DNA of 64,000 nucleotides, taken from assembly GCA_002831545.1 (NCBI GenBank), contig CP025095.1, forward strand, positions 1,736,001 to 1,800,000. The letters are read 5' to 3'. Shown here piece by piece: positions 15,446 through 32,398 of this stretch; within the stretch, counting starts at the first letter, position 1; every line of letters begins with the position of its first letter. A program made the translations under genes and the position numbers. This DNA is from Streptococcus suis (GTDB lineage: Bacteria; Bacillota; Bacilli; Lactobacillales; Streptococcaceae). The notes beneath the pieces were generated by a model. It saw nothing but the letters and a program-made list of their open reading frames with translations. It made no database searches and was not told where the DNA came from.

Positions 15446-16294
15446 CTATCGTACTTTAGTAACTCGACATACTCTCACAAGCTTGCCCAACTTGTAGGCA
15501 AGATAGACAAACAAGAACCAGCCAAAAAGGGTCAGATAGGCGATGAAACTTACACCTTTCTTGCGATAAGATTCCAGCACTGCTTGACTAGACTGTGTTT
15601 TTTCTTCTGAAGCTGCTACCTGCTCGCTACTATCATGATGACGATAGGCATTGACCAAAAGACGATAATCAAAGGGCGGAACCAGAGGATCGCAGGTCAA
15701 AAGGGTCAAGACATCCTGTTTTTCTATCGGAAGCAATTTTTGCCAATCGGTTGCCTTGATGATTTCTGTATTTTTGACCCGATAGGTGACTACTTTTTCA
15801 CCAATTTCAACAAAAATCTCATCGCCCTCACGCATTTCATTCAATCGGAAAAAACGCAAATCACTATACCAACTTCTGTGGCCAGCCAGCACACTACGAC
15901 GATCCCGACCTCCGAAAGGCAAGTCCGTTCCTGACACCACCGCTACACCCTGATCAAGATGGGAATCACTGGCTCCCACCCGAATAGGTTGGCGGATTTC
16001 AAGACTAGGAATACTTACATAGCCGATGATGGTATCTCCAAAATCAGATACGGACTGCTCATCTTTCCTAGTCTCAGCAAAGGGATCAACTGTTGCCAGT
16101 TGACCACTCCGCACTACTTCCTGATAGTGTTCGATGATCTCTTCCTCTTTCTGGGAAAATCCTGACTCCGACTTTTTATAACTCTGGTAAGCAAAAAATT
16201 CCCGCACCTCATGAACTGTCATATTGCTGAACAATAATAAGGGCAACAATAATCCCACTATCATCAATAGATAGCCAACAATTTTCAACCTCAT
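15446..16294 (-). CDS. Class C (pilin-polymerising) sortase
   Basis: 282 residues: N-terminal TM (LKIVGYLLMIVGLLLPL), a lid with the DPF motif (VDPFAETRKD) that marks class C enzymes, catalytic His in LAGHRSWY, Cys in TLLTCDPL and Arg in DYRLLVNAYR, then a C-terminal TM and basic tail. Class C sortases link pilin subunits through Lys isopeptide bonds. The SD is weak (GAGTGAG). It lies 43 nt after the last Rpn-tail ORF and about 1.9 kb from the nearest pilin gene, separated by a terminator at 18148. It could belong to one of the S. suis srt pilus clusters; I cannot say which. Confidence 0.93.
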   Translation of the reverse strand: MRLKIVGYLLMIVGLLLPLLLFSNMTVHEVREFFAYQSYKKSESGFSQKEEEIIEHYQEVVRSGQLATVDPFAETRKDEQSVSDFGDTIIGYVSIPSLEIRQPIRVGASDSHLDQGVAVVSGTDLPFGGRDRRSVLAGHRSWYSDLRFFRLNEMREGDEIFVEIGEKVVTYRVKNTEIIKATDWQKLLPIEKQDVLTLLTCDPLVPPFDYRLLVNAYRHHDSSEQVAASEEKTQSSQAVLESYRKKGVSFIAYLTLFGWFLFVYLAYKLGKLVRVCRVTKVR

Positions 16295-16337
16295 GACCGT
16301 CTCACTCAGTTGCTCTTTGGATGCTCAACATTCAATT

Positions 16338-16589
16338 CTAGAAATCAGCTTTTGTCGCATCCAATCCTCCAGTCTTCAAACCATCCAAGTCTTCCTGGCT
16401 TAGTCCTGTCAGTTCCTTTATCAGCTCATCCGTGAAATTCTTCACCAACATCTGACGAGCAATCTTGAGCTGACCTTCTGCCCGTCCTTCTAACCGGCCT
16501 TCTTCCTGACCACGTCTTCTTCCTAGTATGAACGATGTTTCCAATTCACCAAAATGATTGGCGGCACTATAGGCTAGTTGATCAATCAT
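16338..16589 (-). CDS. Free-standing Rpn C-terminal tail protein, copy 3 (83 aa)
   Basis: Begins MIDQLAYSAANHFGELETSF and continues ILGRRRGQEEG, identical over the first 31 residues to an internal segment of the full-length Rpn at 17112-18029, then two 4-residue RLEG/RAEG units, QLKIARQMLV and the TGLSQEDLDGL end. Its C-terminus (KTGGLDATKADF) differs from the other copies. Its ATG overlaps the previous stop as ATGA and has SD AAAGGTGAA upstream. Lacks the nuclease domain. A candidate RpnS-type antitoxin or regulatory partner; see findings. Confidence 0.75.
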   Translation of the reverse strand: MIDQLAYSAANHFGELETSFILGRRRGQEEGRLEGRAEGQLKIARQMLVKNFTDELIKELTGLSQEDLDGLKTGGLDATKADF

Positions 16590-16840
16590 TTATGTTCACC
16601 TTTCAAACCATCCAAATCTTCCTGGCTTAGTCCTGTCAGTTCCTTTATCAGCTCATCCGTGAAATGCTTCACCAACATTTGACGAGCAACCTTGAGCTGA
16701 CCATCCAGCATACCTTCTGCTCGACCTTTTTGAAGTCCTTGAGCCATACCTTCTTCCTGACCACGTCTTCTTCCTAGTATGAAAGAAGTCTCCAATTCAC
16801 CAAAATGATTGGCGGCACTATAGGCTAATTGATCAATCAT
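16586..16840 (-). CDS. Free-standing Rpn C-terminal tail protein, copy 2 (84 aa)
   Basis: Same N-terminal 31 residues as copies 1 and 3, but the repeat segment is diverged (MAQG-LQKG-RAEG-MLDG, four units) before QLKVARQMLVKHFTDE. Ends LKGEHK; stop and next start overlap as ATGA. SD AAAGGTGAACAT precedes the ATG. The different repeat units argue that the copies have been kept and have diverged, not just arisen by recent slippage. Confidence 0.75.
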   Translation of the reverse strand: MIDQLAYSAANHFGELETSFILGRRRGQEEGMAQGLQKGRAEGMLDGQLKVARQMLVKHFTDELIKELTGLSQEDLDGLKGEHK

Positions 16841-17115
16841 TTATGTTCACCTTTCAAACCATCCAAGTCTTCCTGACTTAGTCCTGTCAGTTCCTTTATC
16901 ATCTCATCCGTGAAATTCTTCACCAACATCTGCCGAGCAATCTTGAGCTGACCTTCTAATCGACCTTCTGCCCGGCCTTCTAACCGACCTTCTGCCCGGC
17001 CTTCTAACCGACCTTCTAACCGGCCTTCTTCCTGACCACGTCTTCTTCCTAGTATGAACGATGTTTCCAATTCACCAAAATGATTGGCGGCACTATAGGC
17101 TAATTGATCAATCAT
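16837..17115 (-). CDS. Free-standing Rpn C-terminal tail protein, copy 1 (92 aa)
   Basis: Starts at the ATG that overlaps the stop codon of full-length rpn (ATGA) with SD AAAGGTGAG. It has the same first 31 residues and then six RLEG/RAEG units (12-nt DNA repeats at about 16950-17020), the longest repeat of the family here. Ends LKGEHK. Probably translated by coupling from rpn. Confidence 0.78.
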   Translation of the reverse strand: MIDQLAYSAANHFGELETSFILGRRRGQEEGRLEGRLEGRAEGRLEGRAEGRLEGQLKIARQMLVKNFTDEMIKELTGLSQEDLDGLKGEHK

Positions 17116-17354
17116 CTTCGCTCACCTTTCAAGCCATCCAAATCTTCCTGACTTAGTCCTGTCAGTCTCGCTATCATTTCATCAGCGAAACCTTCTACTA
17201 ACATCTGCCGAGCAATCTTGAGCTGACCTTCTAATCTGCCTTCTGCCCGGCCTTCTAACCGACCTTCTTCCTGACCACGTCTTCTTCCTAGTATGAACGA
17301 TGTTTCCAATTCACCAAAATGATTGGCGGCACTATAGGCTAATTGATCAATCAT
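17112..17354 (-). CDS. Possible intragenic start: RpnS-like 80-aa product inside rpn
   Basis: Inside rpn, the ATG at 17354 is preceded by GAGGAGGAAAGGAAG, a near-ideal SD placed 8 nt upstream. It is exactly the residue at which all three downstream tail copies begin (MIDQLAYSAAN). An internal product of 80 residues is therefore likely, as described for E. coli rpn genes where the short form inhibits the full-length nuclease. In-frame with rpn, so it cannot be proved from sequence alone. Confidence 0.6.
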   Translation of the reverse strand: MIDQLAYSAANHFGELETSFILGRRRGQEEGRLEGRAEGRLEGQLKIARQMLVEGFADEMIARLTGLSQEDLDGLKGERR

Positions 17355-18029
17355 CTTCCTTTCCTCCTCTGTCCATGTATTTCTATCCAGCAGGTGTTCG
17401 GCCCTGCTGATAGCGTCTGTTTGTTGCTGGCTAAATTCACGATTGGCAAAAAATTCCATCCACAAGCGTTGGTTCTTAGCCAATTTTCCCTCACTCAGCT
17501 TGTTCAATTCAATAATAACCATTTCAAATGGTTTCTTCATCTCCCCTTGCTCTCCAAACGGAATTTCCAACACCTGTCCATTTTCCTCAGCTGTCAAGAC
17601 AAAGGAATGGATGGGCTGCTTATCGTCGAAATACTGGGTGGCGACCAAGGCTATGGAATAAACTGGTGAAATCTTGTCGTACATGTCATGGGTTCGTTTG
17701 ACCTTGTCCCGAACATTGGGCAAATCCTTGACCAAGTGCTGACAAGAGTAAGTCCAGAGACGTTTGATAAAGCTGTGTTGGTGAACCACCTGAATTTCAA
17801 TGATAACCTGAGTGCCATCATCCAGTCTGGCTAGAATGTCCACGGTGGTGCTAAAATAACCCTCCCGTTCTTTCTTCAAATCAGCAATCGTTCCATTTAA
17901 AATCTGAACAGACTTGGGACGAAAGCCCAGAAAGGTCTCAATGAAATCAATGGTAATTTCGTGGTCATTAAATATCTTTTTTGCCACGATATCAATCATG
18001 GGATTGATGCTATGTCGAAATTTTGTCAA
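17112..18029 (-). CDS. Rpn family PD-(D/E)XK nuclease, full length
   Basis: 305 residues from the TTG at 18029, chosen because GGAGG lies 7 nt upstream; the longer frame to 18131 has no RBS and would start upstream of the promoter -10. The N-terminal domain carries the PD-(D/E)XK variant: VDILARLDDG then IIEIQV (Asp ... Glu-x-Gln), preceded by NPMIDIVAKKIF. A middle helical region leads to MIDQLAYSAANHF and GRRRGQEEG, three RLEG/RAEG units and a C-terminal helix. Rpn proteins are often labelled transposases, but in E. coli they are DNA nucleases with anti-phage and toxic activity. Flanked by pilin and sortase genes and by three tail copies. Confidence 0.9.
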   Translation of the reverse strand: MTKFRHSINPMIDIVAKKIFNDHEITIDFIETFLGFRPKSVQILNGTIADLKKEREGYFSTTVDILARLDDGTQVIIEIQVVHQHSFIKRLWTYSCQHLVKDLPNVRDKVKRTHDMYDKISPVYSIALVATQYFDDKQPIHSFVLTAEENGQVLEIPFGEQGEMKKPFEMVIIELNKLSEGKLAKNQRLWMEFFANREFSQQQTDAISRAEHLLDRNTWTEEERKMIDQLAYSAANHFGELETSFILGRRRGQEEGRLEGRAEGRLEGQLKIARQMLVEGFADEMIARLTGLSQEDLDGLKGERR

Positions 18030-18095
18030 TTGTGTTCCTCCGATAAATAGAATTGAGCATGACTCTCTATCTATTAATTCGAAGTTCCTAGTAAT

Positions 18096-18124
18096 ATTAT
18101 AGCACTTGAGAGAATTTTTTTCCA
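18096..18124 (-). promoter_or_regulatory. Promoter of the rpn array
   Basis: Minus strand TGCTATAAT (extended -10 at 18101-18096) with TGGAAA 17 nt upstream. It lies downstream of the pilin terminator and shows that the array has its own transcription. Confidence 0.65.
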
Positions 18125-18212: not shown

Positions 18213-19076
18213 CTAAGTCTTTTCCCCTTTCTTGTATGTGACCAAGCGGTAGCCTAGCAAGAAGAGAATAATGCCTAGCGATAAAACCGCTATGACCACC
18301 GCATTTCCGGTATATGGGATTTCAATACCGGGAGGTGTAACGGGTTTGTTCTTTATGCGGATGACATCCGAAACATGCGAATCCAGACTAATCTCAAAGG
18401 GAATGGTATCCTGACTGAGAAGATAGCCCTTGGGAGCCTTGATTTCCTGGAGATAGTAACTACCATAGGGAAGCGGTCCTACTTTGAGGTGACCTCCATT
18501 TTCCGAGGTCAGATGATAGGGTTTGCCGTCAATCATCACTTGCCTCAGTTGACCGTCCACCTCTTCCAAGACTTGGAAAGTCGCTCCTGCCAAGGGGGCA
18601 GTACTTGTAGAAACCTTGAGAAAATTCCTATAACCCACTTTTTCCCCCGGTAGTCCAACCTTAGCCTGTATGGTCTGTAGGCGTCCGTCTACCTGGAGGA
18701 CAAAGGGAATGACCTCAATGGTAGTTGCTGACCCCTGCTGTCGAATGTAGTACCAGCCCTTTTTCAGACCAGAAAAACCTACAAATCCTTGAGGAGTCAT
18801 GGGGTCAGAAAGCTGGGCTTGTCCATACAGCTGACTTAGCTCCGCTCGACTCAAGGCATAGAGTTTCTCTGCCAGTTGCTCGGGAGTCTCTCGATCCCCC
18901 TCCGGCAGATACCAGGCTTCAAGACTCAAATCTAGCTTGCCCGCATCCATATGCTCTGGCAAGGAAATGCCGACCTGAATAGAATAGGTATCCTCTGCTT
19001 GAACCAAAAGAGAGGGCAGAGACAACGAACAGACCAGTGCAATTATGCAACAGACTAGCTGTTTAATAATCCTCAT
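18213..19076 (-). CDS. Minor pilin, LPXTG-like (IPYTG) anchored
   Basis: 287 residues: signal peptide ending VQAED, an N-terminal beta domain, a SpaA/Cna-B-like domain (APLAGATFQVLEEVDG to the E-box SYYLQEIKAPKGY), a sorting signal IPYTGN, TM and tail YKKGEKT. The small size, position next to the sortase side and E-box Glu suggest the base pilin that anchors the shaft to the wall, but this role is inferred. It starts 24 nt after the backbone pilin stop and ends in a strong terminator. Confidence 0.88.
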   Translation of the reverse strand: MRIIKQLVCCIIALVCSLSLPSLLVQAEDTYSIQVGISLPEHMDAGKLDLSLEAWYLPEGDRETPEQLAEKLYALSRAELSQLYGQAQLSDPMTPQGFVGFSGLKKGWYYIRQQGSATTIEVIPFVLQVDGRLQTIQAKVGLPGEKVGYRNFLKVSTSTAPLAGATFQVLEEVDGQLRQVMIDGKPYHLTSENGGHLKVGPLPYGSYYLQEIKAPKGYLLSQDTIPFEISLDSHVSDVIRIKNKPVTPPGIEIPYTGNAVVIAVLSLGIILFLLGYRLVTYKKGEKT

Positions 19077-19100
19077 CAGACCCTCCTTTTCTACTCTATC

Positions 19101-21119
19101 CTAGGCTTCTTCTGCCTGACGTTTTTTCATAGCGATGAATGCAAATACCATTGTACTCAAACCAACCACTGTGAAGACAAGGGTACCAATACCACCGGTT
19201 TGTGGAATGGTTACTTTCTTGTTACGAATTTGAGTATGCTGATCAATTGATAATTTAGCTCTATTATCATTCCAGCTACCTTGTTGAACTTGGAATTCAA
19301 TACCTGTACTCAATAATGCATAACCTTCTGGCGCCTTGGTTTCTTCCAAGGTATAGGTACCTTGTTTTAAACCCTTGACTTCAAATTTACCATCCGTAGA
19401 GGAGATAAACGTAAAGGCTTGAGATTTATCATTAACCCATGTCCACTGCATATTCAAGGCTTCATAAGCTGCATCACGTGCTGATTTTTCAGTTTCAGCG
19501 TTTCCATTTTTCAAGGCTGCTCGATACGCTTCCTCTGATTGCTTATATCTGGTCAATTGTTCTTGTTGAGTTTGACTATCCTTCAGTGCAAGGTATTTGT
19601 TTTCTTGGTTTTTCACCACAAACTCTGCACCAAGGAGTTTCTCAATTCCCTGTACATCTGCTTCCTTATCATCTGTCTTGATGAAGCGTTTACCATAAGT
19701 GATAACTTTTGGCTGTTCTGGAACGATTGGTGGTGGGTTGTCCGAAGGGTTGTTGGTTACGGTGAGGATATGACCTTTATCAGCTCCAGGTTCAACAGTA
19801 TAAGTTGGAATGTAACCGTTAATATCCTTTTCGACAACTATGTATTCTTTTGTTGATTTTAAATCAGCATGAGTAAACTCAATTTCTGTTTGACCTGGTT
19901 GAATTGTAATTTCTTCACCAATCTTTTTACCAGTTTCTTTTTCGTAAACAACAAAAGTCGCTGATTTATCTCGACTGCCATCTTTCCAAGTTTTATTGAT
20001 TTTAATTTTCAGCTGACCACCATCTTCTTTTGGTGTAACCGGATCTGGCTCATCATTTTTATCTTCACGTGGGCGGTTACCATAGTGGAAGGTCACTTTG
20101 TTAGGGATTTCAGTATCAACCTTCGCTGAGTCGTTGAGAACACCCTTATAGGTCAACGTAATGTTAACATCCCGATCTTTAGCCGCTGTCTCAATAGCAG
20201 CTAGACCCGCCTCATTCACTTTCACCATGAAGCCACGCTTATCGTCAGTTACTGTATAATGAGTACCTTTCTCTAAACCCGCAACTTCTTTAGAAGCCAC
20301 AGTTAATGAACCTTGGACAAAGTCCAAACCTTCAACCATCAAGTCTTCCCAGACAATTGTCTTGTAAGAAGAGCCTTTTGGAATTTTTGTAGTGATTTTA
20401 TAGTCTATTTCTTCGCCAATTGCGACATTTTTAGTTTGAGTGCCACCTTCAGCAAACTCTTTCGTCACTGTCGGCTTATCCTCTGTGTTCTTTGGATAAA
20501 CGTGGAGAGGGTTATTTGTGCTATCAAAATATCCTGTTCCATCTGGACGAGTAACTGGTAAAACGAGACGGAATGGAACGGCTTTAGCCTCTGTCAATTC
20601 ACTACCTTTATCATTACCTTCTTGCTTGTTGTAGTAAGGTGATGCTACCTTATCTTCTACAAAGATATAAGTGCCATTCGGAAGTGTAAATTCTGCACCA
20701 GTATCACCTGCCTTAGTATTTACACCTGTAGTTCCGTACTCACCATCCATTAGTTGATAGTTTTCATCAATACCTTCACCAGTAATCCCTAGTTCAGTAC
20801 CAGTTTTTGTTACATTACCTTGAGCTTGATCAACTTTCTTCCAAACCTTAAAGTTGACACCCTCAATTTCTTTCGCACTTGTACCGAAATAGTTTGTGAA
20901 CGTACCTTGTTGAATTTGTGTTCCATCATACTTGTGAGTTTGTTGCTTAGCAGCATGGTCAAATGATTCTAAATCCTGTTTACTCATCAAGACCTTATGC
21001 ACCACAACCTTAGTTTGATGCGTATCATCTGCATGTACTAAATGTCGAAGATTTCCCAATGGACCGAAAATCGTTAGAAGAACGGTCAAAAGGGAGAATA
21101 CTTTTGTTAACTTTTTCAC
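19101..21119 (-). CDS. Pilus backbone (major) pilin
   Basis: 672 residues: signal peptide to about 30, an N-terminal domain with VVVHKVLMSKQDLESFD, the pilin motif NPLHVYPKN near residue 205 whose Lys is the polymerisation site, Cna-B domains, an E-box (GTYTLEETKAPEGY), and the sorting signal IPQTGGIGT with TM and tail KKRQAEEA. Intramolecular Lys-Asn bonds are expected. It lies between giant adhesin and minor pilin genes, as in streptococcal pilus islands. SD AAGGAG is seen about 7 nt before the ATG. Confidence 0.93.
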   Translation of the reverse strand: MKKLTKVFSLLTVLLTIFGPLGNLRHLVHADDTHQTKVVVHKVLMSKQDLESFDHAAKQQTHKYDGTQIQQGTFTNYFGTSAKEIEGVNFKVWKKVDQAQGNVTKTGTELGITGEGIDENYQLMDGEYGTTGVNTKAGDTGAEFTLPNGTYIFVEDKVASPYYNKQEGNDKGSELTEAKAVPFRLVLPVTRPDGTGYFDSTNNPLHVYPKNTEDKPTVTKEFAEGGTQTKNVAIGEEIDYKITTKIPKGSSYKTIVWEDLMVEGLDFVQGSLTVASKEVAGLEKGTHYTVTDDKRGFMVKVNEAGLAAIETAAKDRDVNITLTYKGVLNDSAKVDTEIPNKVTFHYGNRPREDKNDEPDPVTPKEDGGQLKIKINKTWKDGSRDKSATFVVYEKETGKKIGEEITIQPGQTEIEFTHADLKSTKEYIVVEKDINGYIPTYTVEPGADKGHILTVTNNPSDNPPPIVPEQPKVITYGKRFIKTDDKEADVQGIEKLLGAEFVVKNQENKYLALKDSQTQQEQLTRYKQSEEAYRAALKNGNAETEKSARDAAYEALNMQWTWVNDKSQAFTFISSTDGKFEVKGLKQGTYTLEETKAPEGYALLSTGIEFQVQQGSWNDNRAKLSIDQHTQIRNKKVTIPQTGGIGTLVFTVVGLSTMVFAFIAMKKRQAEEA

Positions 21120-21296
21120 TATTTTCTCCTTTTCTTTTTTAATCTTTCAGTTTGCTTTTATTACTAGCACCAACTATCTGGGAGATAGTTGGTGGGTGGA
21201 AATCGAACGAACGCAGTTCTTGTCAAAATCTGCAGACTGTACTAAAGTACGTCAAAACCAGTTAACCAAGTAATAAAAGATAAAATGATATGTAGC
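21120..21296 (-). other. Spacer between giant adhesin and backbone pilin
   Basis: 177 nt with a 10-bp hairpin (CCAACTATCT...AGATAGTTGG) and no gene. No U-run follows, so it is more likely an mRNA processing or stabilising site that allows more backbone than adhesin to be made. Confidence 0.5.
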
Positions 21297-24200
21297 CTAT
21301 TTACGTATATGTTTCCAACGTTTTTCTTTTCCTAGCTCGACGGCAAGAGCCAGTAACATCATCACCCCCCCTAATGCAATATAAGGAATAATTCCTATAC
21401 CACCCGTTTTCGGATATTCTCCTTTGCGGAGGTTTTTCACGATAATCAGGTGACTATCCGTATTGTCTAGACTGACGAGGTCGCCTCCATCTTGGATAGT
21501 GATGGCTCCATCTGCGCCTATATCAATATGGATTTCTTTTTCAATCTTTTGATAGCCGTCTGGTGCTACCGTCTCTTTCAAAATGTACGATTTCCCTACT
21601 GGCAAATTGTCAAAGAGAACTTCATCTCCTGTTGTCGTTGTTCTCTTAACAACTGCTGTCGCTTGTGCATTCCCACTTTCTTTCAATTCAAATGTCGCTT
21701 CTAGACGTTGAGCTGAATCACGATACGAGCGTTTTGCCAACTTGAACTGAGAGGTTGTTCGGGTATTTTTCATAGTAAAGACGACAAGACGATTCGTGTC
21801 TGCTCGAGACAATGATACCGTCTCGTCAGGATCATGAAGAAGGATGGAGCCATCATGGTTAATCTGGAAACGGTACTCCTTCTGATTGAGGAGATAGCCA
21901 GATGGAGCCTGTTCTTCCTTCAGAATATAGTATCCGTGTTCAAGATTAATCTGATAGATACCAGCACTTGTCACACCTTGAGCCAATGCCGTATCCCCTT
22001 TTGTCCAGTTAACATCTGTCTTGTAGATAGAGAAGCGAGCATTGTCTAGAAGAGTTGTCTCGTTTGCACTATCTATCTTTTTGACTTGGAAGTTAAAAGT
22101 ACGAATGTTTTTAGCAACCATGACAAGCGTATCCCCCTGCCCTGTCTCAACGGATACAAAAGCCTGATCTGCATCAAGGAGCGTCAAGCGTCCGTCCTCC
22201 CCAATCTGGAGGCGCGTATCTCTGATTTTTGTGTAGCCTGATGGAGCTTGTATCTCTCTAAGGACGTATTCTCCAGGTGGGATATTTGGAAAATCAATCG
22301 TATTATCAAAATGAGAATAGCTGTTACCCTCAAGGGCTTTCATCTGACCATTGATGAGCACTTGCACCTTATTGCTACCATCTGCGTTTGGACCTTCAGA
22401 TGGATAGAGAGCAAATCGAGCATCAGATACTCCGTTAGTTGGATTATCATAGTCGCGCTTCTTAATCTTCAAGCGATAGGTCTTCACCTTGTTTTTCACC
22501 GTGATTTGAATGACTTTGTCATCCGAAAGTGGCGCGACAGCAATAAGGTCGTTGCCATTCTCTACAGTTGTTGTGCCATCCGCAGCAATGATCAATTTGT
22601 ACTTGGTTCCATTTGTCTGGAAGCCTGCTGGGGACTGGGTTTCTTGTAAATAGTAGGTACCCGGTGTCAAGGCTGGAGTTTCTATCTCTCCAGTAGCGCC
22701 TGTCACCAAGTCACTTCCAACCTGCGTGCGTCCATCCTCACCAAAGAGTTTGAAGGTTGCATTTTCAAGCTTGCGGTTCTCATCCCTGCTATCAACCTTG
22801 ATAATCTTCAGTTTCGGTTTGAAGATGTTGGTGAGTTTGAGATTTATCCGTCCATCTTTTGTATTGATTTCCGCATTGGTCGGTGCGCCGTTTGCCAACC
22901 GAACTTGACCATCTGCTCCAACGATAATATCAAACGGTTGAAGCAATTCGTAACCAGCTGGTGCAACTAACTCACTAATCGTATACGTTCCCTGAGGAAG
23001 TTTAAAGACAGCGTTGCCAACGTCATTGGATTGGGTCCACCAGGTCAAGGATTTGTTTGCGGTATCAATCGTTGCACGATACTGTTGTCTATGCAAATCA
23101 TTATCGCTAAATAGCGGAGCTGGTCCATTATTTTTTGCCTTGATTTGCAGCTGAACACCTGCCAAATTGATCGTCGGCGTTAGGTTGCTAACCTTTTCGA
23201 TACTGAAATCTGTAAATGGTCTGTTCTTGACGACAAGTTCTATCTCGTTATTGGCATTCACAGCTTGACCTTCCAACAAGTCTTGTGGTCCTTCCACAAT
23301 CGTAATTTGTCCATCTAGACTGATGGTCAATTTGATTTTCTGGATCGGATTGTAGCCTGTTGGGGCTGTGACCTCTTTGAGGACGTAAGTGCCCGGGCGC
23401 AAATTGCGGAAGGTGAGGCTATTTTCTGCCTGTGTAGTATTGCCTTGGCCCAGTGGCGGCCTCGTCTCGTTCTCATCGTAGAGTTCAAAACGGGCATCAA
23501 GTCCTGTATTTGGATTCGCAAGGTCTCGTTTCTTGATAAGCAAATTGTAGGTGAGTAATTCGTTTTTCACGAAGATTTTCAATACATTTTCAGTAGCGGT
23601 GTCAATCCTAACCTTATCATTTGTTCCAACGAGGGTGAAGCGGCTCACTGTCTTCATCTGCCTTCCGCTATGGGGTCGCTGTAGTGTCTGCAAGTCTAGT
23701 AAGACTGGACCAGCTAAAGCACGATAACCAGTTGGCGGTGCGACTTCGACAAGGGCATAGCGTCCCAGTACCTTGGCTTGTAAAGCCTGACTTACTTGAC
23801 CGTTTGTCAATGTAAAGGTTTGGACGAGATTTTGATCTGTCAGAGCGCCTGTCACCGTTTGTGACGTTGCATCATCTGGAACTTTATAGAGCTTAAATGT
23901 CACTTCTTGTTGGATAGTACGGTTATTCATATCCTGCTTCTCGATTTGAATCTCAGGATGTTGAATATTCCCAATTGGGAATGTCTGCCCACCTTGAAGA
24001 CTTACGGACTCCGCTTCTTGGGCTGAGATACGTAGCTCACGAACCCCATACCATTTGTTTACGACTTGCTCTTCATTTCTCACACGAATGTAGCGAGCCA
24101 CTATGTCCGTGTTCAAATCGACCAATCCATGCTCTGTATAAGTAGACAGTGGGAAATAGGTGCGTCCATCTATTGAGTACTCAAGTGTGAAGCGGTTGAA

Positions 24201-27200
24201 TCTATCTAGCGGATTGTGCAGAGTGCCTTGCAAGTAGTGAATGTGTCGAACACGTTTGACGCCTTGTAAGTCAACCCCTAGATAAGCTCCAGCAGGAATA
24301 TTATCTCCTTGACCATTGAAATTCTGGTAGGTCACAGAAGTTGTATCACTTCCATCAATTGCGTCTCCATCTTGTCCTGACTGGATATTGGATAAGTCAG
24401 GGGACTTGAAGAGGGTTGCACCTGCGACACGTTCGATCTGAGCTGCGTTCGCTACTTTATAGAGAGAAACTCCTGAGCGACTCACGGATACCTTATAGGT
24501 AATCGGCTCGACCATATAGCCCGCTGGTGGTGCTGTCTCGACTAGGGTATAAGAACCGTAGGTCAGGTTAGTAAACACGAAGTCTTCTGTCGCAGCATGT
24601 GTCTGAACGGCTGATACTGCGGTTGCGTCATTGTCCTTGGTCAATGTAAAGGTCATCTGACCCGTGATAAGACTCGGCAAGTCTTCCAATCCCTTGATGC
24701 GTTTGGAAATGCGCAGGGTTTTCTTACTGTCGTTTTTCACCGTCAGTTGAAGCGTATTGCCACTTGATGCACCAACTTGTAGAAGCTCCGTATCTCCTGA
24801 CAGGATTCGTAATTGACCTGCCTGCGTGATTTCAAGTCGAACTGGATCTACTTGAATATAACCTGACGGCGGTGTTACTTCTTTGAGGACATAAGTGCCA
24901 GGGAGCAACTGGCTAAAGGTATGTGAATGGTCACTTTCGTTGGTCTGACCTTCCGTAATCTTACTTATCCCATCTGCATTATACAGTCCAAATGTCGCTA
25001 TCAATCCTTGTTGAGCATTCTGGGCATCCCGTTTCAAAATCTTGAGGTCATAGGTTTCTCTCTCATTTTTAACGGTGATTGGGATAATCTTATCCGCACC
25101 CTGATCTTGACTAGCTCCAACCTCAATCTTACCATCAGCATTAGTAATCTGAGCCGAACCATTGTCAGCAATGACAATTCGGTATTTCAGACTATTGGCC
25201 TGATAATCTGTCGGAGGCTGACTTTCTTGCAAATAGTAGGTACCTGGTTCCACGCCTGGAAGCGTGATTTCACCGTTGGTGTCTGTCGTCACTTCCTGAC
25301 CTATCTGCGTATTTTCATCCGGTCCAAATAGCTTGAAGCGAGCACCTGCTAGCTTACGGTTGACATCACGGCTGTCGACTTTGGTAATCTTTATCTTAGG
25401 CTTAAAGACGTTGGTGAGTTTGATATTGATCCGTCCATCTTTTGTACCTTGACTGACCTGCTCAGTATTTGTTCCCTGAGCAAGCTGGACACTACCATCT
25501 TCTGCCACAGTGATATCGAAAGGCTGTAGCTGCTCGTAACCTGCTGGTGCAGAGAGTTCGCTGATGGTATAGGTTCCTTGTGGTAGCTGGAAGACAGCAT
25601 TTCCTGCTGCGGAAGTATTCCATTCAAGGGCCTTTTCAGTGTCAATCACACGACCCTGATAGTTTGTTTCATGCCAGCTTCGATTACTAAATTGCGGCAT
25701 CTGATTGCCATTCTTAGCCTGAATCCGCAACCGCACACCTGTCAAGGTTGTCTCGTTGCTACGTTTGTCCACCTTCTGAATACTGATTGGCGTATAGGTG
25801 CGGTTTTTGATAGTGAGGCTAATGGTAGTATCAACTGTGTTACCCACTTCTACCATTCTGGTTGGGGTATCCAGTACACTGACCTGACCATTGTTCGCAA
25901 TGACAATCTTGAAGTCTCTTAATGGATTATAATTGATTGGCGTTTGCAACTCTTTGAGAATATAGGTACCCGGTCTTAGCTGACTAAAGGTATAGGAATG
26001 ATCGCTTTCGTTGGTCTGACCTTCTGCAATCTTGTTTGTCCCATCTGCATTAAAGAGACCAAATGTCGCAGTCAAACCTTGTTGAGCATTCTGGGCATCC
26101 CGTTTCAAAATCTTAAGGTTATAGACTTTCTGTCTGTTTTTCACCTGCAATTTCAAAACATTGTCATTTGCTGTGCTGCTGGTATCGACAGTCACCTTAT
26201 CTCTAGAGGATAGGACCGCAAACCGTGTCACATGTTTGTTTTTTGTATCTGAATGTGCCTGACGTGCCTCGGTTGCCTCAAGTAGGACTGGCTGGCTCAA
26301 TCCAATATAGCCATCTGGGGCTTGGGTTTCGACCAAGGCATACTTGCCAAGTTCCTTGATGAGCAAGGTTTCATTACCAGTCTGTCCATTGGCTAGTTGG
26401 AAGGTTTGAATGAGATTGTTATCATTAATGGCAGTGGACAGGGTAGTTTCTGTAGTATCTTCCGGAACCTTATAGAGCTTGAAGGTCGCTGTTCCTTGGA
26501 TAATGGCACCTGTCTCACTATCTCGTTTTTCCATTCGGATAAATGGATGTTGGATATTTCCGATTGGAAATGCCTGCCCACCTTGAAGACTTACGGACTC
26601 CGCTTCTTGTGCTGTGATACGTAGCTCACGAACCGCATACCATTTGTTGACGACTTGTTCTTCATTTCTCACACGGATGTAACGAGCAAGAAGGTCGGTA
26701 GACTGTTCAAAGCGTTCAGCCGTTGCTGATGAAGTGATTGGGTAGTAGGTCTCACCATCAATAGAATATTCTACTGTATAGCGATTCATCCTATCCGTTA
26801 CATTACTCTGGTTTCCTTGTAAGTAGAAAACATTTCGAACTCGTTTGACGCTTTGGAGGTCAACGCCTAGATAGGCACCGACTGGGATGGTATTTCCCTG
26901 ACCATTGAAATTATAATAGGTCACAGAAGTTGTTTCACTTCCATCAATGGCATTGCTCTCAGGACCACTCTGAATATTGCTCAAATCAGGAGATGTGATT
27001 AGGCTCGCCCTTTCAACTCGACTCGGTGTCACTTGGTCACTTGTTCGATAAAGGGATACTCCTGCTCGACTGACCGCAACTTTATAAACAATCGGTTCCA
27101 CCATGTAGCCTGCTGGTGGCGCTGTCTCGACTAGGGTATAAGAACCGTAGGTCAGGTTATTAAAGACGAAGTCTTCTGTCGCAGCATGGGTCTGGACGGC

Positions 27201-30200
27201 TGGTACTGCGGCCGCATCATTATCCTTGGTCAATGTAAATGTCATCTGTCCTTGAATCAATGCTGGTATCGTTTCCAAGCCCTTGATACGTTTGGAAATA
27301 CGCAAGGTTTTTAATCGGTCGTTTTTGACTTTGATTTGTACTGTATCTGGAGATGTTGCACTGGTGGCTATTCCGTCCGCAAACTCTTCACTCACTGTTA
27401 CACGTCCATCTGAGTGGATTGTAAATGGTATTAAGTTTGTCAGTCGTGTATACCCTTGCGGTGCTCGGATTTCTTTAAGATAGTAGGTTCCTGCTTCAAA
27501 TCCAGAATTAGCACCGCTTCCATTTGTGAATGTAAACATACCATTTTGCAGATTGGCAATTTGACCATTAAGCGTGTCTCCTGTAGCATTTGTCACCGTG
27601 AAACGTGGAGCGGTATCGTTGACGCCTTCCGTAATCGTTTGTCCTGTCTCCGCATCGATTTTTACAATCTTAACCTTAAATTTCGGTGGAGAGTTAACGA
27701 TAGTCGAACTGCCACGAGTAAAGCGGGCTGTTCCATCTTCGTTTACAGTAAACTGAGCCACTGCTTGAGTTGGTTTTGCATAGCCATCTGGTGCACGAGT
27801 TTCCCACAGTTCATAGGTGGTATTTGGCAAGAGACCTTTCAGGACAAATTGTCCATTGGCTTTAGAGAAGAGGTTTGTTCGTACAACTGTAAAGCCAGTT
27901 GAGTGTATCTGACGCAATTCAAAGATTGCATTTTCCAATGGTTCTCCCTGAGCATTTTGCTTCGTAAACGTTAGTTCAAGCGGTTGATTATAGATATCCA
28001 GAGTCACCACACCATTGGTCAGTTGAGGAGTACTGGTCTGGCTGTTAGCCGTGTCTGCCTGTTTACGCAGTTTAAGCGTTCCATTTTCTTCATAAACCGT
28101 TAAGTTGATCTGCCCCATTCCACGATAGCCTGTGGGTGCTCTTACTTCCTCCAGCGTGTAGTTCCCTACTGTCAACTCATTAAAGAGGAACTCGTCTGAT
28201 TCAAATGTATTTCCGAGCGTCTCATCATATGGCTGACCACCATCTGTTTTTCTCAGGCGGAAAACAGCACCTTTCAATGGAGTATTTGCCAGATCTTTTT
28301 TCTTGAGTTTGAGGCTGAGTTTCGCATCCTTCTTGTTTATAATTTCAAACGGTGCTTGGGCAGTATAGGATTGTCCATCAATCGTTATATTGTCTGAATT
28401 TCTAATAATCAATCTATGGACTGTCGTATCTAGCGTATAACCCGCTGGTGCTTCAACTTCCTTGAAAGTGTACTCTCCTCCTAAGATATTTGTAAATTCA
28501 AGAATACCTTGTTCATTTGAACGAATGGTTTGATAAGGGCGCTGTTTCGAGTCGTAGAGAGTAAAGACCGCGCCTTCTAACGGACGATTTTGCTGATCTA
28601 CTTTCTTGACTTGGAAGGCATACCAGTCTGTCGGATAAGCTCCACCATTGGCAATCGTATCTCCTCCAACGAAAAAATTATCAGGTTTCAGACCACCACC
28701 AAGCACCACACTATTCCAGTTAACGCTTGTAGCATTCCTAAAACTTGTCTTACCAGAAGATTTTCGTTGCTTGAGACGAACAACGATTGTCTTATTTCTA
28801 AAACCGCTTCCCTCGTGATAAATTTCAAGAGTGTAGTTTGATTGGTAATTAAATTCGTTATTGTTCCAAGTCTCGCGTTTCAGTAGAACCGCAACCCCCA
28901 TATCCGTACCTTTAACCTCGTAGTGATATGTTGTCTCCTCACCACTTCTTGAAGTTCCTTTAAATGTTAGTGGTACCATCTCTGATCTAGTATAGGAAGC
29001 TGCCGGATTTCCATCCGCAACAAAAATCTCTATATTTTTTGGAATACTTGTATGAGTATTTCCATCATACAAGGGCGAGTCCACATGAAGGCGATCCCAA
29101 ATCTTACGGGCATTAGGACCGCTACCGCCAGTAATATCCTTTCTCCCTCCATTGTAGACTAGTTCCCAAGTAACAGAATCAGCTGTTTGATGAAAAACTT
29201 CTTTATGTACAGTACTAAACTGACGCAGACTTCCTTGAAGACCATGGCTACCGTTTTCAGTCGCATTAAGAGTTCCGTTAGCAGTCACCGTATGGCTACA
29301 ATCAAAGTTTCCTCCCTTGTAGCTAGTCTTATATTTCAATTTTTTATTGACTATATTGGACTGGGTATCGATTGGATTTTCTAAATCAAACGAATACCAC
29401 TCTGGTACAACTGGACGAACTCCAGTTAAATATGGTCCTCTGATATTTGTATCGTTATTGATTTGTACTAAATTTTGACTGCCGTCACTACCAATCTGAA
29501 ACCATCCACTATACTCACTTACTGAATAGGCTGCCGATGTCAAAACAAACTTGATTTTTCTGTCTTCTACATGATAGGTACGAGCAAGGATTTCATTTGT
29601 ACCGCTTTTATAAACCGGTGTCCATTCAACAGATGGATTGGCCAAATGGTCTAATTTTAACTCTTTTGGCAACTCAATCGTAAAGCTATCACCTTCTCTA
29701 GCAAAAGCTGGCAATTTGAAATAGAATTTTAGTGAACCATGAAATCCTCCCCATCTCTGCCCATTACGTTGCCAAGTTAACCAGTTGATATTGACTGGTT
29801 CAACACTAGTCACTCCATACGATTCACAAGAACCTGGTGGCGTAGGTGTTACAGGATTGCTAGTATCCTTTTTATTCGTAAAGACATACTGCAAATTTTT
29901 CCAATCCATCTGTGCAGTAGAAAGCGCATAGCCACCTGGAACATCTTCGGTCACTTCATAGTATATTCGTGTTTTTGTGGCAGTACTGCCTGTTCCAGAA
30001 AACTTTTCGACATTTGGAACGGTTACCTGTGTCTGATTCGCTTGCAAGGTTACTTTATGGTTTCTATAACTTCCACCATTGACAGAAAAAGTGACAGCGG
30101 TCTTCTCCGTACCAGTTGCCCATTTTTTCTGTATTGTAATATCACCTTTTAGAGCTTCTAGTGATGCACCCGTAATCGTATGATTTGCTTTTTCATTTGT

Positions 30201-32306
30201 CACATTGGTAATTGTCTCGACTACTGCAATACCTCCTGCTGGAACATCATTTACGGTAATTTGACTTTGCGTTTTATCAACTGTTTGCGTACTCTTTCGC
30301 CTATAATTCCCTCCCTCAGTAGGTTCATAGACATAGACAATCTTTGAATGAACTGTTTGTGTATTCTTATCTTCAGCAACGTCAAATGTATACGTTTGTA
30401 CACTATCTGTCGTATTGAGACGAGAGGTATACCACTCAATCACCTTATTATTAGACTCGCGATAGCGACCATTCACTCGAATAGTATCTGATAATTTTGG
30501 TGTATCATAAGGTGAGGTGGTTTGATCACTTGGCAAGGTCAAACTACCTGCACTTTTAATGTTTCGCTCCTCCTCCCTAGTTAATACAATCGTTTGTCCA
30601 TTTTGTGTCAAACGGGAACGTTCCGGCGCTTGCACCTTAACATCCGAATAATAATCCAGTGTGTAGTTCTCACTTGGAAGAAGAATCGGTGTTTCAATGG
30701 TGTACACATATGTGCCATCTTGAATCGGCAACTGATTTGTAACAGAATCAAATCTACCAGAATCACTATACCGACTCGTCTCAGGATTTCCAATCGTTTG
30801 TCCTTGGTTGTGGATAATAGATGTAATCTTAGGTGCTCCAAGTCCTGAGTCAACTGGTACCATAAAAGTATTTGCAATTTGTTTGATATATCTATCATTT
30901 GCTCCAGTAACAGTTGTAATATATTCCCAAATAATCTTCTTTTCACCAGTAGAGGTAACCTGAATTTCTTTCTTGCGTAAATCTCCTCCCTGTCTAAAAT
31001 GACGTGTTACCCCCGGAATCTCAATCCGAATCGGGTCAAAAATATCCTTGGTGATTTCCTCTTCTTTCGTAACAGTAGTGGTTGTTCCATTCGGATTATT
31101 GATAATGGTCGTTGTTCTATCCGTATTCGTTTCTGTAATAGCCCTCCTAGTCCGAGCAGAGCGCAACATACTACCAATCCGTCCTTCCAACCCATTCTTT
31201 TTAGCATTGGTGACATGGATTATTTTTTCGGCTCCACTTTCTTGCAACTGAATGACTGTCAGCTGTTTCTCTACTTCGTAACCTTGAGCTGTTGACAATT
31301 GACTGATTTGGTACTCACCCAAAGGTAAGTCTTTCCAGTCTAAAATCCCCTGCTCATCAGTGCGACCGTTATAACTTATTTCTGGATTTTCTACCGATGT
31401 AATGATAAACTCCGCACCTGCGATGGGCTTGCTAGGTTGCAAGACACCTTCTTCATGTTCTCGTAATACCAAGCGTAGATTAGCTGTTTGAATGGCTAAA
31501 GCTTGTTCTTCTTGTATCACCTCTTCGCCTTCAGGTACTGGATTAGGCTGCGTGTTGTCAGAAGTAGATTCAGAAGTTTCTGGAATTGGCTGCTCGGTAT
31601 CGGAGGCTACGGAATCAGTCACCATCTCTATACTATTCCTTTTGACCAATTCTTCAAATGTTTTCCAGTCTTCTGTTAAGATGGTCTTATAATCTGATGA
31701 CAGAACGGCCATAAATTGACCAGTTTGTAGCGGCTTCTTTATCTTCAAGCGTAGCAGAATTTCCTCGTATCTCCGCTCAGGCTTCTCTTCATCTACCTTC
31801 CACTCTATATGGCGTTCAGGCTCTGGCTTGATTTTGATGGAGTAATAGCCTAGACCATATACAGGCAAGGAAGATTCTAGAGAATCCTGTGTTGCAACAG
31901 TTGGGGCAACTTCCTGCTCAGGAAATTCCTTGGGCACATCTTCTTCACGATAGTCTTCATCCTTGACAAAACCTGGTGGAAGTTTTTCCTTTGGAACCCC
32001 TTGCTCATCCAGCTGACTTTCCAGTTCCAGCTCATTCTGGACTACCAAGCTAAGCCCCTTGCTGATGTCTACTCCCTCTTCAATCTGGACAATCACATCT
32101 AGCCTATCGAGCTGCTTTTGACTGGTATCTAGCTTAATGGCCAGCTTTTGACCATCTTCCTTCAGATGTTCTATATACTTAGTCCGAATGGTTAGTGGCG
32201 TTGTAGCACTAACTGTTTCCGAAAAAATTGTTATCGGTAACCGAATAATATCCAGACATAGAACAAGTAATAAGAAAGAACTAAAAAAGTATCTTACCTT
32301 TTTCAT
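21297..32306 (-). CDS. Giant ancillary pilin / adhesin, 3,669 aa, SpaA/Cna-B and discoidin domains
   Basis: Start set at the ATG at 32306 (MKKVRYFFSSFLLLV, signal peptide) because ATGGAGAAAAGTT gives an SD; a longer frame reaches 32354 without one. After a Pro/Glu/Thr-rich stretch (about 30-290) comes an adhesin head of two parts: about 420-650, and about 830-1160 with one Cys at each end of a likely disulphide (GSCESYG; NFDCSH). Then about twenty prealbumin-like domains, each with an E-box such as YTLVETAPPAGY. Two F5/8 type C (discoidin) domains lie at about 1762-1902 and 2625-2765 (IRVRNEEQVVNKWY near their ends), which can bind glycans or phospholipids. The end is YPKTGG, TM and basic tail. 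It is the tip or shaft-bound adhesin of the pilus. No frameshift over 11 kb. Confidence 0.92.
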   Translation of the reverse strand: MKKVRYFFSSFLLLVLCLDIIRLPITIFSETVSATTPLTIRTKYIEHLKEDGQKLAIKLDTSQKQLDRLDVIVQIEEGVDISKGLSLVVQNELELESQLDEQGVPKEKLPPGFVKDEDYREEDVPKEFPEQEVAPTVATQDSLESSLPVYGLGYYSIKIKPEPERHIEWKVDEEKPERRYEEILLRLKIKKPLQTGQFMAVLSSDYKTILTEDWKTFEELVKRNSIEMVTDSVASDTEQPIPETSESTSDNTQPNPVPEGEEVIQEEQALAIQTANLRLVLREHEEGVLQPSKPIAGAEFIITSVENPEISYNGRTDEQGILDWKDLPLGEYQISQLSTAQGYEVEKQLTVIQLQESGAEKIIHVTNAKKNGLEGRIGSMLRSARTRRAITETNTDRTTTIINNPNGTTTTVTKEEEITKDIFDPIRIEIPGVTRHFRQGGDLRKKEIQVTSTGEKKIIWEYITTVTGANDRYIKQIANTFMVPVDSGLGAPKITSIIHNQGQTIGNPETSRYSDSGRFDSVTNQLPIQDGTYVYTIETPILLPSENYTLDYYSDVKVQAPERSRLTQNGQTIVLTREEERNIKSAGSLTLPSDQTTSPYDTPKLSDTIRVNGRYRESNNKVIEWYTSRLNTTDSVQTYTFDVAEDKNTQTVHSKIVYVYEPTEGGNYRRKSTQTVDKTQSQITVNDVPAGGIAVVETITNVTNEKANHTITGASLEALKGDITIQKKWATGTEKTAVTFSVNGGSYRNHKVTLQANQTQVTVPNVEKFSGTGSTATKTRIYYEVTEDVPGGYALSTAQMDWKNLQYVFTNKKDTSNPVTPTPPGSCESYGVTSVEPVNINWLTWQRNGQRWGGFHGSLKFYFKLPAFAREGDSFTIELPKELKLDHLANPSVEWTPVYKSGTNEILARTYHVEDRKIKFVLTSAAYSVSEYSGWFQIGSDGSQNLVQINNDTNIRGPYLTGVRPVVPEWYSFDLENPIDTQSNIVNKKLKYKTSYKGGNFDCSHTVTANGTLNATENGSHGLQGSLRQFSTVHKEVFHQTADSVTWELVYNGGRKDITGGSGPNARKIWDRLHVDSPLYDGNTHTSIPKNIEIFVADGNPAASYTRSEMVPLTFKGTSRSGEETTYHYEVKGTDMGVAVLLKRETWNNNEFNYQSNYTLEIYHEGSGFRNKTIVVRLKQRKSSGKTSFRNATSVNWNSVVLGGGLKPDNFFVGGDTIANGGAYPTDWYAFQVKKVDQQNRPLEGAVFTLYDSKQRPYQTIRSNEQGILEFTNILGGEYTFKEVEAPAGYTLDTTVHRLIIRNSDNITIDGQSYTAQAPFEIINKKDAKLSLKLKKKDLANTPLKGAVFRLRKTDGGQPYDETLGNTFESDEFLFNELTVGNYTLEEVRAPTGYRGMGQINLTVYEENGTLKLRKQADTANSQTSTPQLTNGVVTLDIYNQPLELTFTKQNAQGEPLENAIFELRQIHSTGFTVVRTNLFSKANGQFVLKGLLPNTTYELWETRAPDGYAKPTQAVAQFTVNEDGTARFTRGSSTIVNSPPKFKVKIVKIDAETGQTITEGVNDTAPRFTVTNATGDTLNGQIANLQNGMFTFTNGSGANSGFEAGTYYLKEIRAPQGYTRLTNLIPFTIHSDGRVTVSEEFADGIATSATSPDTVQIKVKNDRLKTLRISKRIKGLETIPALIQGQMTFTLTKDNDAAAVPAVQTHAATEDFVFNNLTYGSYTLVETAPPAGYMVEPIVYKVAVSRAGVSLYRTSDQVTPSRVERASLITSPDLSNIQSGPESNAIDGSETTSVTYYNFNGQGNTIPVGAYLGVDLQSVKRVRNVFYLQGNQSNVTDRMNRYTVEYSIDGETYYPITSSATAERFEQSTDLLARYIRVRNEEQVVNKWYAVRELRITAQEAESVSLQGGQAFPIGNIQHPFIRMEKRDSETGAIIQGTATFKLYKVPEDTTETTLSTAINDNNLIQTFQLANGQTGNETLLIKELGKYALVETQAPDGYIGLSQPVLLEATEARQAHSDTKNKHVTRFAVLSSRDKVTVDTSSTANDNVLKLQVKNRQKVYNLKILKRDAQNAQQGLTATFGLFNADGTNKIAEGQTNESDHSYTFSQLRPGTYILKELQTPINYNPLRDFKIVIANNGQVSVLDTPTRMVEVGNTVDTTISLTIKNRTYTPISIQKVDKRSNETTLTGVRLRIQAKNGNQMPQFSNRSWHETNYQGRVIDTEKALEWNTSAAGNAVFQLPQGTYTISELSAPAGYEQLQPFDITVAEDGSVQLAQGTNTEQVSQGTKDGRINIKLTNVFKPKIKITKVDSRDVNRKLAGARFKLFGPDENTQIGQEVTTDTNGEITLPGVEPGTYYLQESQPPTDYQANSLKYRIVIADNGSAQITNADGKIEVGASQDQGADKIIPITVKNERETYDLKILKRDAQNAQQGLIATFGLYNADGISKITEGQTNESDHSHTFSQLLPGTYVLKEVTPPSGYIQVDPVRLEITQAGQLRILSGDTELLQVGASSGNTLQLTVKNDSKKTLRISKRIKGLEDLPSLITGQMTFTLTKDNDATAVSAVQTHAATEDFVFTNLTYGSYTLVETAPPAGYMVEPITYKVSVSRSGVSLYKVANAAQIERVAGATLFKSPDLSNIQSGQDGDAIDGSDTTSVTYQNFNGQGDNIPAGAYLGVDLQGVKRVRHIHYLQGTLHNPLDRFNRFTLEYSIDGRTYFPLSTYTEHGLVDLNTDIVARYIRVRNEEQVVNKWYGVRELRISAQEAESVSLQGGQTFPIGNIQHPEIQIEKQDMNNRTIQQEVTFKLYKVPDDATSQTVTGALTDQNLVQTFTLTNGQVSQALQAKVLGRYALVEVAPPTGYRALAGPVLLDLQTLQRPHSGRQMKTVSRFTLVGTNDKVRIDTATENVLKIFVKNELLTYNLLIKKRDLANPNTGLDARFELYDENETRPPLGQGNTTQAENSLTFRNLRPGTYVLKEVTAPTGYNPIQKIKLTISLDGQITIVEGPQDLLEGQAVNANNEIELVVKNRPFTDFSIEKVSNLTPTINLAGVQLQIKAKNNGPAPLFSDNDLHRQQYRATIDTANKSLTWWTQSNDVGNAVFKLPQGTYTISELVAPAGYELLQPFDIIVGADGQVRLANGAPTNAEINTKDGRINLKLTNIFKPKLKIIKVDSRDENRKLENATFKLFGEDGRTQVGSDLVTGATGEIETPALTPGTYYLQETQSPAGFQTNGTKYKLIIAADGTTTVENGNDLIAVAPLSDDKVIQITVKNKVKTYRLKIKKRDYDNPTNGVSDARFALYPSEGPNADGSNKVQVLINGQMKALEGNSYSHFDNTIDFPNIPPGEYVLREIQAPSGYTKIRDTRLQIGEDGRLTLLDADQAFVSVETGQGDTLVMVAKNIRTFNFQVKKIDSANETTLLDNARFSIYKTDVNWTKGDTALAQGVTSAGIYQINLEHGYYILKEEQAPSGYLLNQKEYRFQINHDGSILLHDPDETVSLSRADTNRLVVFTMKNTRTTSQFKLAKRSYRDSAQRLEATFELKESGNAQATAVVKRTTTTGDEVLFDNLPVGKSYILKETVAPDGYQKIEKEIHIDIGADGAITIQDGGDLVSLDNTDSHLIIVKNLRKGEYPKTGGIGIIPYIALGGVMMLLALAVELGKEKRWKHIRK
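22490..27300 (-). repeat. Large internal duplication in the giant adhesin (863-codon period)
   Basis: Matching segments lie exactly 2,589 nt (863 codons) apart: KTLRISKRIKGLE at about 27300 and 24711, and the discoidin blocks at about 26600-27020 and 24010-24430. Each module is SpaA (ETAPPAGY) - discoidin - SpaA - SpaA - SpaA (YTISEL) - SpaA (YYLQE). DNA identity is high, so homologous recombination could expand or shrink the protein. Confidence 0.85.
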
Positions 32307-32398
32307 AACTTTTCTCCATTTCATATACTTATATTCATCATTATTCTTTATCACGTTGTCATTACGTTGTCATTTCACCTAATTTGGCGTTTCAGTTG

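Follow-up and report, generated by a model that had tools for sequence, protein, structure and literature searches.

The closest described systems are rpn loci of Escherichia coli, where single free-standing rpnS genes are found: ypaA after rpnE, and a second rpnCS (Zhong et al., 2023, PMC10327210). These duplicates arose separately, each from its own rpn, and their loss by deletion or fusion has been noted (PMC10327210). YpaA protein was detected in E. coli K-12 (PMC10327210). In the one E. coli protein on which the repeat-matching rule is based, RpnC, only an RpnS with an equal number of tetrapeptide repeats blocks the toxin, and a mismatch of one repeat abolishes inhibition (PMC10327210). 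Tandem arrays of whole rpn genes were described in the same study (Zhong et al., 2023, PMC10327210), which leaves open what drives the variation in repeat number and how the free-standing copies originate. Spare C-terminal modules are also found outside the rpn family, as the orphan CdiA-CT and Rhs-CT cassettes of polymorphic toxins (PMC3150448, PMC3482391); this is a working likeness, and no homology is claimed. The tail is the toxin in CdiA-CT and Rhs-CT, whereas the Rpn tail is the antitoxin or oligomerisation part. Orphan modules of the CdiA-CT and Rhs-CT kind can recombine onto the toxin gene.

The array studied here belongs to Streptococcus suis and was found in the window, a stretch of 64,000 nucleotides. 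The features of the array are collected in Table 1. As in E. coli rpnE-ypaA and rpnC with its second rpnCS, a full-length rpn gene with an internal RpnS start (hereafter L) is followed by free-standing rpnS duplicates (hereafter S), and the number of tetrapeptides varies in both groups of bacteria. However, the main text of the preprint describes one downstream copy in E. coli (PMC10327210), whereas three are present in the window. The array is also close to the tandem arrays of whole rpn genes in that the duplication is local and direct, but it multiplies only the antitoxin-coding 3' end; streptococci also mix L and S (locus L072). The initial annotation knew of no description of such an array. 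This holds for multi-copy arrays only, since a single downstream rpnS and tandem rpn genes are already published (PMC10327210). Among the open-licence papers listed, no account of multi-copy rpnS arrays or of Rpn function in S. suis was found, which is weak evidence of absence. What is new here is how common the free-standing copies are in streptococci, their mismatch with the adjacent toxin, and the movement of tails between toxin and free-standing positions. The main text of PMC10327210 mentions neither a difference in repeat number between copy and neighbour nor an exchange between toxin and free-standing genes from strain to strain; signs of both are found here.

Table 1. Features of the rpn array, in window coordinates.
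Feature	Position	Strand	Remark
Sigma-70-type promoter-like site, TGGAAA-17-TATAAT, extended -10	18096..18124	-	Upstream of rpnL; 10/12 consensus matches; a consensus match only, 7 such sites in the region vs 4.8 expected in shuffles
Shine-Dalgarno (SD) GGAGGAA of rpnL	18035..18041	-	
rpnL, full-length Rpn PD-(D/E)XK nuclease, 305 aa	17112..18029	-	TTG start at 18029
Internal SD GAGGAGGAAAGG within rpnL	17358..17369	-	Computed SD pairing -11.9 kcal/mol
Predicted intragenic rpnS, 80 aa	17112..17354	-	Internal ATG at 17354
L tetrapeptide units RLEG RAEG RLEG	17226..17261	-	3 units
SD AAAGGTG of S1	17123..17129	-	In last rpnL codons
S1, free-standing RpnS-like ORF, 92 aa	16837..17115	-	
S1 tetrapeptide units	16951..17022	-	6 units
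SD AAAGGTG of S2	16848..16854	-	In S1 end
S2, free-standing RpnS-like ORF, 84 aa	16586..16840	-	
S2 tetrapeptide units MAQG LQKG RAEG MLDG	16700..16747	-	4 units
SD AAAGGTG of S3	16597..16603	-	In S2 end
S3, free-standing RpnS-like ORF, 83 aa	16338..16589	-	C-terminal end GLKTGGLDATKADF
S3 tetrapeptide units	16473..16496	-	2 units

The initial annotation had read the locus as rpnL with an internal ATG, followed by three ATGA-coupled ORFs, and this reading was borne out. Each of S1, S2 and S3 starts with an ATG overlapping the TGA of the preceding gene. Their SD sequence, encoded by the final codons of that gene, pairs more weakly (-6.9 kcal/mol) than the internal SD of rpnL. All three begin with MIDQLAYSAANHFGELETSFILGRRRGQEEG. 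Their first 31 residues, already reported as shared exactly by the short ORFs, are also those of the internal product; the corresponding 93 nucleotides differ at 1-5 positions between copies. The numbers of tetrapeptide units after QEEG were likewise given correctly (3 in L, then 6, 4 and 2), but those of S2 are not RLEG or RAEG alone. After the repeats, L carries an “alpha” type of segment, VEGFADEMIARLTG, and S1, S2 and S3 all carry a “beta” type, VKNFTDELIKELTG-like. Tandem Repeats Finder (TRF) detects in the window a 251-bp tandem repeat of 3.4 copies (score 1085). S1-S3 match the family model TIGR01784 at its C-terminal end only, from positions 222, 223 and 228 to 271 of 273, with 31-34 bits, below the whole-protein cut-off of 52.1. 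Together, the tandem repeat and these C-terminal matches argue that the array is not due to chance.

The identification of RpnL as an Rpn nuclease stands, since the protein scores above the curated cut-offs of both TIGR01784 (97 bits, cut-off 52.1) and PF12784 (62 bits, cut-off 27.4). Five residues, D13, D64, E78, Q80 and R90, are invariant across 27 aligned L proteins. In E. coli RpnA, the residues reported as needed are D11, D63, E82, Q84 and R94, according to PMC5350276; from a reading of the motifs, the five invariant residues seem to correspond to these catalytic positions. RpnL is a putative growth-inhibiting DNA endonuclease. Among the PADLOC 2023 defence models, RpnL matches PDC-S11 (E=0.0081) and S2 matches C3a178, a “putative invertase” (E=1.5e-5); no match was found there for S1 or S3.

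The intragenic start is well conserved. A methionine occupies the corresponding place in 113 of 114 distinct L genes, and the mean pairing energy of the internal SD ranges from -10.3 to -11.9 kcal/mol depending on the clade, in agreement with the internal RpnS start proposed from the window. When compared with synonymous resamples (threshold <=0.1), the internal SD stands out in 10/10 genes of clade A, 8/12 of clade B, 5/17 of clade F and 5/67 of clade H; this synonymous-codon test is strong in clade A only. rpnL probably makes its own antidote, RpnS, from its tail.

The short ORFs had been read as free-standing relatives of RpnS, and two lines of evidence agree with this. First, S1-S3 closely repeat the tail of RpnL. 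Second, a profile of clade-A S proteins matches RpnAS, an antitoxin with a crystal structure (PDB 7TH0, E=5.4e-4), a match that is modest when taken alone because 8VD6, a helical “CAP repeat” chain that looks unrelated, comes close to it (7.8e-4). With the L profile, 8VD6 scores better (4.8e-7) than 7TH0 (0.044). A free-standing RpnS such as YpaA would be expected to have three helices, the first of them long. The AlphaFold model of S1 is helical (residues 16-32, 38-65, 70-77 and 81-89, the last two helices being short and C-terminal), with a pLDDT of 81-88 over residues 51-90 only, about 46-54 before them and low over most of the repeats.

The initial annotation proposed searching streptococcal genomes for rpn genes followed by ORFs starting at the internal methionine. 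The census carried out here covers 101 stretches (the window, L037-L076 and L125-L184) chosen by the authors among the matches listed, hence a non-random sample. It contains 116 full-length L genes, corresponding to 114 distinct L+S sets. S matches lie downstream of 53 of the 114 distinct L genes: 61 have none, 35 have one, 13 have two and 5 have three, so that 18 have at least two. Three of the three-copy sets are clean (the window, L037 and L061), and the counts for L125 and L127 take in fragments of broken copies. By clade, S copies accompany 8/10 L genes in A, 6/12 in B, 1/1 in C, 1/1 in E, 7/16 in F, 2/2 in G, 27/67 in H and 1/5 in the rest; free-standing copies thus recur in at least 7 Rpn clades. 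The internal-start motif is found in 69 of the 76 S matches, always with an ATG (69/69) and, in 68 of 69, with an SD-like core as defined by a loose list of cores. The remaining seven are four pieces of broken copies and three copies of L061 with a different N-terminus. In the protein database, S1 has 243 relatives at E<=1e-6 with a length of 0.55-1.75 times that of S1. Among the best 120 of these 243, taken by similarity to S1, 10 of 117 rows were unparsed and dropped; of the 107 parsed, 86 start at the internal methionine and 21 are extended at the N-terminus.

At the pilus locus itself, close relatives can be compared. Besides the window, a pilus sortase with at least 95% identity was found only in G252, G254, G255 and G262, among 59 relatives and 15 chosen genomes. 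Each of the four has rpn sequence at this place, broken in G254 and cut by the contig end in G262, and no empty insertion site was found among the same 59 relatives and 15 chosen genomes. G252 carries the same array of L and three copies in the same place, between pilin and sortases, with 3 units in L and 4, 5 and 3 in the copies. G255 has one copy (L 6 units, S 7), G254 has no copy and a broken L, and G262 has no copy but lies at a contig end. The initial annotation had considered that the copies could be strain-specific assembly duplications. An assembly artefact is ruled out, since G252, a single contig, carries the same array at the same locus. The genome of the window is one contig of 2.72 Mb. 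All 19 loci returned from the named genome collection belong to Streptococcus suis.

What, then, could the copies do? The initial annotation put forward a higher antitoxin dose, which means that S1-S3 would be extra cognate antitoxin raising the RpnS:RpnL ratio. Coupled ORFs equipped with SD sequences and 31 first residues identical in all four products are what such a role would call for. However, none of the three copies in the window has the repeat number of L, and each has a beta post-repeat segment where L has alpha. S1, S2 and S3 hence lack, toward RpnL, the equal repeat number on which blocking was reported to depend in RpnC. The same is seen at larger scale. Unit numbers are equal in 10 of 65 L-S pairs versus 7.6 expected when L is shuffled within clades (p=0.21), the 65 pairs being the 76 S matches minus 3 of L061, which dropped out of the pairing together with their L, and minus 8 unparsed. 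With pieces of broken copies included (76 pairs), 11 are equal versus 8.4 expected. At least one match is found at 10 of 50 loci versus 7.1 expected (p=0.14). Repeat-number matching is near chance and is not avoided either; in clades B, F and H, matches are no commoner than chance. In E. coli, rpnE and ypaA differ in unit number at 9 of 9 fetched loci, which were obtained from 10 of 30 records listed out of 5371, plus K-12. The values, seven of them distinct, are 0/1, 3/1, 5/1, 5/2, 8/6, 5/0, 8/4, 0/1 and 8/4, and the ends after the repeats also differ in 9/9.

Clade A behaves differently from this general picture. There, L and its nearest copy differ less than expected by chance (summed minimum differences of 5 versus 11.9, p=0.034), and three single-copy loci, L039, L043 and L044, match exactly with 3/3, 5/5 and 6/6 units. 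It is possible that the dose reading applies within this clade, or that homogenising gene conversion is at work. In their post-repeat segments, adjacent L and S are more alike than shuffled pairs overall (0.777 versus 0.715), and also in clades A, B and F but not in H. The copies are therefore not random with respect to their L. Still, with no match among three copies in the window, 10 of 65 pairs genus-wide, none of nine loci in E. coli, and the published loss of blocking upon a one-repeat mismatch in RpnC, a plain dose role is disfavoured, and we regard it as distinctly unlikely for the window.

The tails themselves appear to circulate. The 99 post-repeat nucleotides of the G262 toxin are 100% identical to those of the G255 S1, versus 87.9% for G255's own L. 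The toxins of G254 and G262 end like S3 of the window (GLKTGGLDATKADF, one residue apart in G262), and no S was found with either of these L genes. The L045 toxin is 99% identical in its post-repeat segment to the S of L042, with the same last residues, and L045 has no S of its own. The post-repeat segment of the L042 toxin (LQQG group) is 97% identical to the S of L039 and 81.8% to the L of L039, the two L bodies being 94.2% identical; this toxin has an S-type segment, yet L-type last residues. From these alignments, the L042 toxin fits the pattern of a conversion and L045 that of a deletion-fusion. In E. coli, rpnE genes without ypaA bear a ypaA-type end in 2 of 2 fetched cases, which fits the fusion reported in PMC10327210. 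More generally, S tails are nearer to a foreign L tail than to their own by at least 5 points in 39 of 64 cases, and the reverse holds in 7 of 64, a contrast inflated by the fact that each S has one own L and many foreign L; 13 of the 64 have an L match of at least 95% elsewhere, and in 6 of these the own L is below 90%. Before the repeats, the window copies are 95.6-100% identical to one another and 88.9-94.4% identical to those of G252, so that these segments are homogenised within a genome between L and its copies. Tails would move between toxin and free-standing positions across strains, and the shared tails fit both replacement and loss of a copy with its end fused to the toxin.

We tentatively favour, as an explanation that comes near to being probable, an RpnL-RpnS toxin-antitoxin gene whose antitoxin-coding 3' end was tandemly duplicated into three free-standing, translationally coupled rpnS genes serving as alternative antitoxins or spare tails. 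In this scheme, duplication of the 3' end would give the free-standing genes, slippage would alter their unit numbers, and recombination would shift segments between L and S. The copies would be translated and may work as alternative antitoxins or as dimer partners whose affinity is set by helix length and is mostly poor for the adjacent toxin. They may also be templates for new toxin tails, and with every tail so acquired the toxin would receive the intragenic antitoxin that matches it. A matched RpnS is already encoded within L; a free-standing copy that matches would then add nothing, and one that does not would do no harm, which would explain the persistence of both states and make the array a stock of tails. 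Since most copies mismatch the adjacent toxin and tails are traded, the copies look less like an extra antidote than like spare parts. Alternative antitoxins together with tail exchange fit the data better than a plain dose role. The data also accommodate the other proposal of the initial annotation, partners with different oligomer contacts. A more specific version seems rather unlikely, though worth stating: the array would be an expressed library of spare tails, and the toxin would recombine with a copy to switch its silencing partner, thereby gaining a matched internal antitoxin, with the remaining copies covering former or alternative tail states. If true, this would be a toxin-antitoxin system with built-in switching of specificity, perhaps escaping phage factors that imitate or titrate one form of the tail.

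These observations bear on the questions left open in PMC10327210. They suggest that tails pass back and forth between the toxin and the free-standing genes and that, in the sampled streptococci and the fetched E. coli loci, a copy as a rule mismatches its neighbour. Should the copies prove unable to block the toxin next to them, “extra antitoxin” would be a wrong label; should they block it, the repeat-matching rule would not be general. Either outcome bears on the specificity of toxin-antitoxin systems.

The copies could also be a by-product of direct repeats at the 3' end whose number rises and falls through slippage and unequal exchange, leaving transient and largely functionless ORFs. Several features are in line with this. 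At one and the same locus, the number of copies is 3, 3, 1, 0 and 0 (window, G252, G255, G254 with its broken L, and G262 at a contig end), broken copies are found at L125, L127 and L178, repeat numbers match at chance level in clades B, F and H, and ypaA carries a pseudo or incomplete flag in RefSeq at 8 of the 9 E. coli loci. Moreover, the copies evolve faster than L: between the window and G252, dN/dS is 0.067/0.429 for concatenated S (40 synonymous and 29 nonsynonymous changes) and 0.011/0.257 for the L body. The S ratio is still well below 1, a value in which constraint on S is not separable from conversion by L, with which the copies are homogenised. In clade H, constraint is equally strong ahead of the internal start and in the S part (dN/dS 0.114 versus 0.113; L 0.05, 0.089), giving no support for constraint on S there. 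Against functionless debris stand this low S ratio, the ATG kept in all 69 motif-bearing copies, the 243 database relatives, the recurrence in at least 7 Rpn clades, and the fact that YpaA is made in E. coli (PMC10327210). A pure by-product is, in our opinion, unlikely.

Finally, the copies could act solely as a shield, guarding against Rpn toxins of other strains, or of former tail states, that arrive by gene transfer. The S copies of the clade have 0-6 units, overlapping the L alleles of the clade with 2, 3, 5 and 7, as counted among the best 120 of 243 relatives, a choice by S1 similarity that biases counts of repeat types. In addition, the first helix differs in the other intact Rpn genes found in the genome of the window, so that any partner with the helix of this array would be foreign. 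However, no plasmid relative of L was found at E<=1e-20, and phage records yielded 7 weak matches out of 50,697, all below 60% identity. A shield function alone is quite improbable. Phage-borne anti-Rpn copies were also considered and set aside, given the same seven weak matches, the viral contigs, in which no close relative was found, and the plasmids, with no L relative at the above threshold.

Some further observations concern the surroundings and relatives of the array. It sits in a pilus-type cluster (window 18213-32354, all on the minus strand) that comprises a backbone pilin, a SpaA-domain protein and an ORF of 3685 aa, and a sortase, also on the minus strand, lies beyond the array. In G255, the rpn copy is separated from the sortase retained in the window by two further ORFs that by eye resemble sortases. 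The window has neither of them, and G252 has one of them broken up into two ORFs (compared regions: window 16294-16338, L038:3512-5196 and L037:5105-6749). The genome of the window contains one more Rpn gene, which belongs to a different tail clade (G000:C1, about 188145-189818; L075:3646-5319), with two free-standing tail ORFs and an additional fragment. It also has an rpn free of stops at 733892 and a broken one at 252485. PF27070 is precomputed for most tails among the database proteins P0001-P0213; a Pfam scan of the window tails did not return it.

Other streptococcal loci show variants of this organisation. The tails of L061, L067 and L068, which belong to another clade, have an N-terminus resembling MATNLEILH or MESKLELIH instead of the internal methionine, and copies within one array carry two different C-terminal halves. 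Clade-A tail genes with no adjacent full-length L found are present at L177:3270-3520 and in L178, where part of the sequence preceding the internal start can still be recognised and the frame is broken. Arrays combining full-length rpn with free-standing tails occur in L072, L071 and L164, and L071 has a row of five full-length rpn genes. In Streptococcus pneumoniae, the Rpn-like gene SPV_2082 and related pseudogenes are discussed with control by ComX (competence) in PMC6560143, and this link is a lead for the regulation of streptococcal rpn genes.
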